64,000 nucleotides of DNA from Anaerolineales bacterium (GTDB lineage Bacteria; Chloroflexota; Anaerolineae; Anaerolineales; UBA11579), in NCBI GenBank assembly GCA_020059485.1, contig JAGVCA010000036.1, forward strand, positions 1 through 64,000, given 5' to 3'. A program made the position numbers and the translations under genes. Under the pieces are notes generated by a model, which saw only the letters and a program-made list of their open reading frames with translations, had not been told where the DNA came from and ran no database searches. Of this stretch, positions 11,786 to 14,441 are shown piece by piece (within the stretch, counting starts at the first letter, position 1; every line of letters begins with the position of its first letter).

Positions 11786-12298
11786 TTACTTCCTTGTTAA
11801 TTTCTCAATGATCTCGCCATGCTGCGGAAACCTGGTGAGTAAGTCCTTGCGGTTGGCCAGATCAAAATCCTCATCGGTGTATCCCGGCGCCATGGTGGTA
11901 CCCATCAATGCATATGCGCCTCCCGGCGCTAGTCTCAGCCCCTGCCACACCCCGGCCGGGACAGCATACTGCACCCGCTCCCCACCGAAAAGGTCCTGCC
12001 CCAGAGTCACCACATCTAGCCCTCCCGTCGGGTCGAGCAGCGTCAATCGGACCGGATCGCCGAGGTAAAAATGGTAAACCTCATCAGTCGGCAGCCGGTG
12101 GAAAGCCGAAAACGAATCCGGTTCGCCGGTTAGCAGATAGTAGATCGCCGTCCCGGCCGGCTTGGCAGAACGATAGCGGTCCGGCAGCGCGCCCAGGGGC
12201 AGCACATCCGCCGAGCGATAGGATTGGCGATACAGCCCGCCCTCGCCATGTAACGCCTCCAGTCCCAGGAGATCGATCAATTTCTGCACGTCCATCAT
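11786..12298 (-). CDS. Cupin family protein (DUF985)
   Basis: A 170-aa DUF985-type cupin. Characteristic elements are the start LIDLLGLEALHGEGGLYRQSY, then AGTAIYYLLTGEPDSFSAFHRLPTDEVYHFYLGDPV (metal/ligand pocket of the jelly roll) and the C-terminal GTTMAPGYTDEDFDLA. Relatives include yeast YML079w, whose ligand is not settled. It follows the selenoprotein-like gene by 26 bp and precedes the SDR by 2 bp. Confidence 0.92.
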   Translation of the reverse strand: MMDVQKLIDLLGLEALHGEGGLYRQSYRSADVLPLGALPDRYRSAKPAGTAIYYLLTGEPDSFSAFHRLPTDEVYHFYLGDPVRLTLLDPTGGLDVVTLGQDLFGGERVQYAVPAGVWQGLRLAPGGAYALMGTTMAPGYTDEDFDLANRKDLLTRFPQHGEIIEKLTRK

Positions 12299-12324
12299 TT
12301 CGCAGCCATCCTCTGCCGACTCAC

Positions 12325-12804
12325 TCAGGGAAGTGACTGGCGGACTCTCTCTGGATCGATCGAACCCACCATCCGCCAGACCTCTTCGCCGTCCGCATTA
12401 AAGTATATGAAGGTCGGCGTCCCAAGTGTGCCATATTCCCGGGAGATTTCCCGACCGGTTCCGGTCTGGACATCCACCACCAGCACGACCAATTGTCCTA
12501 CCAATTCTGTCTTCAGCCCATTCACGATGGGCTCGGCTGCTAGGCAGGCCAGTCAATTTGGAGACCGCACCTCCAGCAAGACCGGCATCCCTGCCCCGAT
12601 CTGATTGCGCACGCCCGCCGCGCCTGGATCCTCAACCGCAGCCGGCCGCAGCGCCAGAAACACGACGGCCAAAACGACTGTTACCGCACCCAAACTGATC
12701 AGCGCCCACTGGTCGGTTGACCGCCGCAAGATCAGCACCGCCGCCATTACCCACAGCCCGATCACCAGCAGCAGGAACGAATTCTGATTTACGATTTGAG
12801 CCAT
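12325..12804 (-). CDS. Thioredoxin-like selenoprotein with UxxC motif (TGA read as Sec)
   Basis: The ATG at 12804 (AAGGAG 6 nt upstream) opens a frame broken only by one TGA at 12553-12555, then runs to a stop at 12325; 159 residues if TGA is read through. Residues about 6-55 hold two membrane segments (SFLLLVIGLWVMAAVLIL and ALISLGAVTVVLAVVFLAL). The C-terminal part is a thioredoxin fold: PVLLEVRSPN, then U84-L-A-C87, and the cis-Pro strand GTPTFIYFNADGEEVW. The TGA stands exactly where the first Cys of CxxC is expected, and a SECIS-like hairpin follows. The product would be a membrane-bound thiol/selenol redox protein. The alternative is a pseudogene with a single nonsense mutation, but both halves look intact and the gene sits in a tight operon (7 bp after trmO). 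Confidence 0.8.
12515..12533 (-). promoter_or_regulatory. Bacterial SECIS-like hairpin
   Basis: In the mRNA, AGCCCAU pairs with AUGGGCU (7 bp, perfect) around a 5-nt loop CGUGA whose second base is G. The loop starts 26 nt after the UGA at 12553-12555. Bacterial SECIS elements are known to sit within the coding region about 16-37 nt downstream of UGA with a G in the first two loop bases; this one meets both rules. Confidence 0.75.
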
Positions 12805-12811
12805 ATGCTCC

Positions 12812-13330
12812 TTATAATTGCGAGTCGTCTTCTTTGCCAAAACGATCGTCCGATCGGGTCTGCCGCAGTTCATCACGCGATCCCCGGTACCACCCCAGGC
12901 CAGAGACCTCCCAATGATCAAAGTCCGGGATATAGGGTTTGATATCCAGCAGCGGTGTACCATCCAGGATATCCACATTCTCGATCTCCAGCCGCTTGCC
13001 GGAAACTGCCGTCAGCCGCACGATCGAAAGGCCGATCGGATTCGGACGACTGGGCGCTCGGGTGGCAAACACCCCATGCGGCTCACCATCCAGGAACGGG
13101 GTCACCTGCAGCCGGGCTGCGCCTGCCTGATGGAAGTGATACAACAGGATCAGATGAGAAAAACCTTCCAGGTCGGCCAGCCCGGGCACGAAATCCGGCT
13201 GCATCTCGATCCATCCCTTGACCCCCAACGCGGCCGCCGGCTGGATCGGCATCCCGCTGGGCTGCTTGAACGGGCTGTGGATCAGGCCGATCGGATCGAA
13301 GGATACCGGCCGCAATTCAGCGCCGCTCAT
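12812..13330 (-). CDS. trmO: tRNA (N6-threonylcarbamoyladenosine(37)-N6)-methyltransferase TrmO
   Basis: A 172-aa protein of the TsaA/VirR family, which methylates t6A37 in tRNA with SAM. Signature segments: DPIGLIHSPFKQPSGMPIQP, FSHLILLYHFHQ, and TRAPSRPNPIGLSIVRL, then NVDILDGTPLLDIKPYIPDFD. Length fits the single-domain form. The start ATG (MSGAELRPVSF) was chosen because the conserved region begins shortly after; it overlaps the end of the upstream coiled-coil gene by 14 bp, implying translational coupling. Confidence 0.93.
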   Translation of the reverse strand: MSGAELRPVSFDPIGLIHSPFKQPSGMPIQPAAALGVKGWIEMQPDFVPGLADLEGFSHLILLYHFHQAGAARLQVTPFLDGEPHGVFATRAPSRPNPIGLSIVRLTAVSGKRLEIENVDILDGTPLLDIKPYIPDFDHWEVSGLGWYRGSRDELRQTRSDDRFGKEDDSQL

Positions 13331-14441
13331 CGCCCTCCTCCAGCAGCCGTTTATCAACTGAGGCCAGACGCTCACGCAGCCGGCGGACTTGGTTCTCGAT
13401 CTGGGCATTGTGCACCCCGAGGAAGTCACTCAACTGCATCGTCGGCTGGCTCTCCTCCTCCGTGAAAACGATCTCGCGCGCCAGCGGCGCCAGCAGCACG
13501 TTCAGATACTCCATCGTGAACTTACGGATCGATTCGTCCAGGTAGGAGAAATCCACCCCCAGCGAAAGCCGGTCCATCAGCGAACTACGCTGGTCGATGG
13601 TCAGCTCTGCCAGCCGCTCATCGCCCGGCAGCACCCGCTTGGATGGCCCCTGCCCGAGCACACCGCCCCATTTCTTCTCGCGGATCTCGTACAGTTTCCA
13701 ATCTTCCTTTTCGACAAAGAACCCCTGGAATTCGGATCGAATCCCTGAAATGACCACCTGCCCGGCGTCGTTGATCCGCAGACCGACCTTTTTCATGTCC
13801 ACGCCCAGGTTGGCCTTGAACCGAGTATCCAGGATCCCTAGGTATTCCTGTTCGCTGCCCCGCCGCAGGCTGTCCGGTGGTGCGCTTTCCAGCTCTCGCA
13901 GGAGCACATCCGTGATCATCGACTTAACCTCCAGGAAGGAGACCTTCTCGATCGGGCGGATGCTGTCCACCTCGACATGCATGTTCTTCTGCTTTTCCAG
14001 CTCGCGCTCCAGGATCGCCTTCTCCTTTTGCAGCAGGATGATCTCCTCGCGCTGTTCCTCGCCAACCTCGGTTAATTGACGCAGGTCTTGCTTGAGCACC
14101 AGGTCAGTCTCGATCTGCCTCTCGATCTGACGCACACCTTCACGAACTTTAGCGCGCAGCACAGCCGGCAGAGTGAAGGCGAACACAGCCGTACCCAGGG
14201 CCGCGCCCAGCGACGCCACCAGAACGGCAGTACTTTTTTCACTCAAGGAGTTGGCGACAAAGAACGACCCGGCCGCCAGCGCTGCCCCAGCCGCCAGCAG
14301 AATCCCGAGATAGATCTGGTTGAAAAAGCCGGTCAGCGCACCCCAGTAGCGCGTCAAGCGGTGCTGAAGTCCTCGCCAAGCGCGGCGCACCCGGCGTCCC
14401 CGTTCCTGGCGGGCTCGTTTTTGATTTTGATCATTATTCAT
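13317..14441 (-). CDS. Membrane protein with coiled coil, unknown function
   Basis: A 374-aa protein not recognised as a named family. The N-terminus is strongly basic (residues 1-30), followed by two membrane segments (IYLGILLAAGAALAAGSFFVA and STAVLVASLGAALGTAVFAFTLPAV, about residues 43-92). Next is a coiled coil (about 100-155, VREGVRQIERQIETDLVLKQD ... LLQKEKAILERELEKQ) and a soluble C-terminal half with a second short helix-rich tail. It lies between the GGDEF protein and trmO in the same operon. The topology suggests an inner-membrane scaffold or sensor but no function can be assigned. Confidence 0.75.
   Translation of the reverse strand: MNNDQNQKRARQERGRRVRRAWRGLQHRLTRYWGALTGFFNQIYLGILLAAGAALAAGSFFVANSLSEKSTAVLVASLGAALGTAVFAFTLPAVLRAKVREGVRQIERQIETDLVLKQDLRQLTEVGEEQREEIILLQKEKAILERELEKQKNMHVEVDSIRPIEKVSFLEVKSMITDVLLRELESAPPDSLRRGSEQEYLGILDTRFKANLGVDMKKVGLRINDAGQVVISGIRSEFQGFFVEKEDWKLYEIREKKWGGVLGQGPSKRVLPGDERLAELTIDQRSSLMDRLSLGVDFSYLDESIRKFTMEYLNVLLAPLAREIVFTEEESQPTMQLSDFLGVHNAQIENQVRRLRERLASVDKRLLEEGDERR

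Follow-up and report, generated by a model that had tools for sequence, protein, structure and literature searches.

A Very Likely Selenocysteine-Containing, Membrane-Anchored Thioredoxin Family in Anaerolineales and Other Chloroflexota

Gene Structure

The DNA analyzed here, called the window, is a stretch of 64,000 nucleotides from an Anaerolineales bacterium (contig JAGVCA010000036.1). On its minus strand, a reading frame runs from 12804 to 12325. It begins with ATG (12804–12802), contains 159 sense codons and ends with the stop codon TGA (12327–12325). The only in-frame interruption is another TGA at 12555–12553. The protein read through this TGA has two hydrophobic segments followed by a thioredoxin-like domain, which contains PVLLEVRSPN-U-L-A-C-LAAEPIVNGL and, further downstream, GTPTFIYF. 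The features are listed in Table 1.

Table 1. Features of the putative selenoprotein gene in the window
Feature	Position	Strand	Evidence
Shine-Dalgarno-like AAGGAG, three bases 5' of ATG	12808–12813	minus	Sequence
Putative selenoprotein gene, thioredoxin with two TM helices, 159 residues with Sec84	12325–12804	minus	Frame and homologs
Two predicted TM helices (residues 3–28 and 32–51) with a positively charged loop between them	12652–12798	minus	AlphaFold, hydropathy, charge counts
Predicted thioredoxin domain (residues 73–159), cis-Pro strand TPTF	12328–12588	minus	PF00085 23.5 bits, at the cut-off; top Foldseek matches are thioredoxins
In-frame UGA, codon 84, first residue of UxxC	12553–12555	minus	Homolog alignment
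Putative resolving cysteine Cys87 (TGC) of UxxC	12544–12546	minus	Invariant in the alignment
Bacterial SECIS hairpin, 7-bp stem AGCCCAU/AUGGGCU, apical loop CGUGA at 12522–12526	12515–12533	minus	Fold, covariation, invariant loop GU

The original prediction for this DNA described one TGA in an otherwise intact 159-codon frame, placed at the first Cys of a CxxC motif (U-L-A-C), with membrane segments before it and GTPTFIYF after it. It also described a 7-bp stem with the loop CGUGA, 26 nt after the UGA. All of these are seen in the minus-strand frame, and the hairpin is found exactly at 12533–12515; the strand itself was absent from the prediction, as were the membrane topology and the membership in a lineage-wide family. 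The plus-strand translation of 12325–12804 was rejected, as there is no gene there. Annotation with the standard code stops the gene at the internal TGA and the active site is missed.

On the same strand (11786–13429 of the window), a TrmO-like gene (PF01980) lies upstream and a DUF985 cupin gene (PF06172) lies downstream. Neither has an obvious redox link.

Fold and Membrane Topology

In the AlphaFold model (pLDDT 88.9), two long helices at the N-terminus are followed by a thioredoxin fold. In the Foldseek comparison with PDB, nearly all of the leading matches are thioredoxins. The score against PF00085 equals the cut-off (23.5 bits for both), and all 30 of the family members compared match this model at E up to 1e-3.

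Among 25 members with two helices, the inter-helix loops contain 72 K/R and 17 D/E, while the N-termini contain one K/R and eight D/E. Based on the positive-inside rule, this charge pattern places the inter-helix loop inside and the thioredoxin domain outside. The active site is thus apparently extracytoplasmic. In relatives with a single helix (L034 is one), the N-terminus that precedes the helix is basic, from which the same outside location is predicted.

Homologs and the Codon at the Active Site

The read-through protein has matches in 189 of 396 genomes of the same class, and many of these contain exactly one internal TGA and no other stop. From the best homologs in the class, 70 were aligned. 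At the active-site column, 56 of them have TGA and 14 have TGC or TGT; no other codon is seen. In all 56 homologs the TGA is at this column, and they come from many families. Thus, a single in-frame UGA is aligned to the redox Cys of homologs, as in bacterial selenoproteins. When the alignment was used to search 400 genomes of the phylum, further members with one TGA appeared outside the class. With the single protein as the query, a contig scan gave only a distant match, in Roseivirga. This redox protein is spread through a large bacterial lineage, and its annotation is probably wrong in many genomes.

The SECIS Hairpin

Bacterial SECIS elements are located in the coding sequence, around 16–37 nt after the UGA, and have a G early in the apical loop. 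In the window, 26 nt separate the UGA from the loop of the hairpin, and G31-U32 of the loop is invariant in UGA-bearing sequences. When the window sequence is folded alone, z is −1.87 and 9 of 200 shuffled sequences are as stable. The hairpin of this one sequence could be chance. A chance hairpin is ruled out by the covariation across the family.

No gaps are needed to align the codons 3' of the UGA. Among 54 distinct sequences with UGA, 91.9% of the hairpin cells are paired. Double changes are seen in 52 cells, against 17.6 ± 3.5 in shuffles (0 of 500 reached this count). The covariation score is 0.358, against 0.171 ± 0.012 in shuffles (again 0 of 500), and slid structures score 0.10 or less; when the 3' arm is slid by 1–3 bases, the signal is gone. 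Pair 28–36 is G-C in 30 sequences, A-U in 22 and C-G in 1, and pair 27–37 is C-G in 35, U-A in 12 and G-C in 4. The paired changes of the stem include CCC-AUC...GAU-GGG, CCC-GUC...GAC-GGG, CCU-GUC...GAC-AGG, and CCG...CGG. Where the 3' arm encodes Gly, the codon is GGG in 32 of 32 cases, compared with 28% of the Gly codons in the long ORFs of the window. Codon choice in the hairpin tracks pairing, not usage.

The mean folding energy of this segment is −9.8 kcal/mol in the Sec forms and −3.7 kcal/mol in the Cys forms, and the hairpin is absent from most Cys homologs. One Cys homolog, L087, keeps a similar stem and is placed among Sec relatives in the tree; it looks like a recent conversion. In the window member, an Asp-to-Asn change breaks the innermost C-G pair, which is present in most homologs. 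Searched with Rfam at gathering thresholds, the window contains matches to rRNA and tRNA only, with no match to a SECIS family.

Selenocysteine Machinery

The genome encodes SelA (423 bits), SelD (366 bits) and a tRNA-Sec (selC) with the anticodon TCA (73.4 bits). In this same genome (G000:C47), at around positions 1501–1560 of L015, SelD appears from its sequence to be a selenoprotein itself, with an in-frame TGA in SYSRCAGUASK. SelB was not found in the window's assembly, either with the family model or with the SelB of a relative as the query. This assembly is around 70% complete and has no match of EF-Tu strength either. SelB matches over the cut-off were obtained in 39 of 61 genomes sampled in the order. 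The missing SelB is read here as a probable assembly gap.

A tRNA-Sec turns up in 295 of the 396 class genomes. Among carriers of the UGA form it is there in 73 of 88 genomes, as against 9 of 24 that have only the no-stop form (Fisher p = 3e-5, which overstates the case since related genomes are treated as independent). The 15 genomes that have the UGA form and no tRNA-Sec match are all 92% complete or less. Five genomes of a sister genus are without tRNA-Sec, SelB and the membrane-anchored UxxC thioredoxin, and have only shorter no-stop thioredoxin-like matches.

The original prediction took the TGA for a selenocysteine codon, and left to be checked which residues homologs carry at the aligned position, whether the hairpin is conserved, and whether the four sel genes are present. 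Only Sec (UGA) or Cys (UGC/UGU) occupies this position in the 70 homologs. The hairpin is maintained by compensatory changes in the Sec forms and mostly lost in the Cys forms. As for the sel genes, the expectation holds for selA, selC and selD, and selB is the one not found in the 70%-complete assembly. The Sec/Cys interchange, the covarying hairpin and these three genes support the predicted decoding. Judging from the sequence data, we estimate a probability of about 95% that the UGA is a selenocysteine codon and that Sec is inserted at residue 84.

Proposed Function

The SECIS hairpin just 3' of the UGA would recruit SelB carrying Sec-tRNA-Sec, and the ribosome would insert Sec84 to produce a protein of 159 residues. 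Its two N-terminal helices would hold it in the cytoplasmic membrane, and the thioredoxin domain would lie on the outer side. There, Sec84 could serve as the attacking selenolate on disulfides of targets, or on other oxidised thiols, and Cys87 could resolve the mixed selenenyl-sulfide. The electrons may come from the cytoplasm via a membrane carrier of the CcdA/DsbD type, and a candidate domain is present in the genome (68.7 bits). By analogy, the protein is probably an extracytoplasmic thiol-disulfide reductase with Sec as the attacking residue. Sec is the N-terminal residue of UxxC, the attacking position, which suggests disulfide reduction. We infer both the reductive direction and the electron donor. 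No conserved functional or redox partner was found in the gene neighborhood, and the neighbors differ between families.

Alternative Interpretations

If the gene were a pseudogene or contained a sequencing error, the TGA would be a nonsense mutation or a misread TGC, TGT or TGG in a Cys thioredoxin. Only one base separates TGA from TGC and TGT, and the assembly is an incomplete draft. Yet the same TGA is at the same column in homologs of many families, the frame is conserved past it, and the hairpin covaries. The independent recurrence of TGA refutes this explanation, to which we give almost no weight. The frame would stay open, too, if the whole lineage had reassigned UGA to Trp (code 4) or Gly (code 25); this reading is even less credible. 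The window gene and several homologs end in TGA, and homologs have Cys at the column, never Trp or Gly; these two observations refute reassignment, while the tRNA-Sec with anticodon TCA and the covarying hairpin also argue against it. It could also be speculated that SelB has been lost in this species, that UGA is no longer decoded, and that the gene is a recent relic encoding a membrane stub of 83 residues. The lack of a SelB match in the assembly fits this, and so do the sister-genus genomes, which are 92–96% complete and lack both SelB and tRNA-Sec. However, it would be odd for SelB to be lost while selA and selC are intact, along with a selD that contains an in-frame TGA; the 70%-complete assembly lacks an EF-Tu-strength match as well, and neither the stem nor the frame shows decay. 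Such a relic is quite improbable, if less so than the other two explanations.

Even with selenocysteine insertion accepted, the main role of the protein might be that of an oxidant or isomerase, or the handling of metal(loid)s, instead of disulfide reduction. In one related family, a methyltransferase with similarity to TPMT/TehB and a protein of a metalloenzyme superfamily come next; in two other families, a gene for a zinc-ribbon FmdB-like protein directly follows; and no conserved redox partner gene adjoins. These neighbors vary from family to family and are not kept in the window, and Sec as the N-terminal nucleophile of UxxC, the classical thioredoxin fold and the cis-Pro fit reduction best by analogy. 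We regard a non-reductase role as unlikely, but as the one alternative of some weight.

The neighboring genes were observed as follows. In the relatives of the family f2 (L098, L100, L103, L107, and L112), the methyltransferase gene with weak TPMT/TehB similarity and the metalloenzyme-superfamily gene follow in most genomes, and not in the window. That these neighbors are connected with methylation of metalloids or selenium is a guess. The zinc-ribbon FmdB-like gene is at about +259 to +472 relative to the UGA in L113 and at +247 to +460 in L115.

Comparison with Known Thioredoxins and Selenoproteins

Proteins of the ResA/TlpA/DsbE type are membrane-anchored extracytoplasmic thioredoxins, likely fed by CcdA/DsbD. 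The window family shares the predicted anchoring and location, but those families are Cys-based and few members of the window family match them, weakly. In addition, the Pfam match of the window protein is PF00085, not AhpC-TSA or Redoxin. SaoT (NF040730) and the HUIPC-motif selenoprotein (NF047660) are also small thioredoxin-like UxxC selenoproteins. Neither model matches the window protein at E up to 1 or the 30 members at E up to 1e-3, and the window family has no HUIPC motif.

Bacterial Sec thioredoxins (Trx, PF00085, UxxC) are an established kind (PMC1794560, PMC13188914). The window family resembles them in having Sec for the first Cys of CxxC, the thioredoxin fold, and a UGA whose SECIS lies within the coding sequence. 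Unlike them, it has two N-terminal membrane helices (or one), its catalytic domain apparently lies outside, and it is mostly Sec across a large lineage. The window protein is also far under the cut-off of the NCBIfam thioredoxin equivalog TIGR01068 (28.7 vs. 96.8 bits). The thiol:disulfide interchange selenoprotein (PF13098 Thioredoxin_2; PMC13188914) shares UxxC and the thioredoxin-like fold. The window member scores 25.1 bits against a PF13098 cut-off of 27, and the best stretch omits the active site; 25 of 30 members match this model at E up to 1e-3.

Only three selenoproteins were counted in Chloroflexi in the 2006 survey (PMC1794560), and the text of the 2026 inventory makes no mention of Chloroflexi or Chloroflexota (PMC13188914). 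Titles and abstracts on selenoproteins in Chloroflexi, Chloroflexota or Anaerolineae include none that describes this thioredoxin family, and NCBIfam has no model dedicated to a lineage-wide membrane-anchored Sec thioredoxin family. With subscription literature mostly outside this search, we call it a new membrane-anchored family within the known kind of Sec thioredoxins.

Evolution of the Sec and Cys Forms

In the maximum-likelihood tree, Cys members are scattered among Sec members. There are seven label changes, at least six of which are on well-supported branches. Ancestral Sec with repeated Sec-to-Cys conversion is the simplest reading. The direction of change is not proven by this tree, which is unrooted (drawn with a midpoint) and whose members were chosen for their similarity to a Sec form. 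We lean toward a membrane-anchored extracytoplasmic thioredoxin family that is spread through Chloroflexota, had Sec ancestrally, and has repeatedly given rise to Cys forms. If true, this is the reverse of the Cys-to-Sec trend that a 2006 survey reported for most families of thiol-redox selenoproteins (PMC1794560). One small thioredoxin here offers many natural Sec/Cys switches, accompanied by the matching presence or absence of the SECIS. They are good material for studying why an extracytoplasmic redox enzyme keeps or loses Sec.

In some relatives, two UGA-bearing thioredoxin copies adjoin (G514:C25:16925-17971, G475:C20:73923-75114, and G715:C326:482-1528). Another genome, which has a typical member, also contains a divergent second UxxC thioredoxin-like selenoprotein (positions 1–1601 of L089, G018:C42), and it is on a long branch of the tree.
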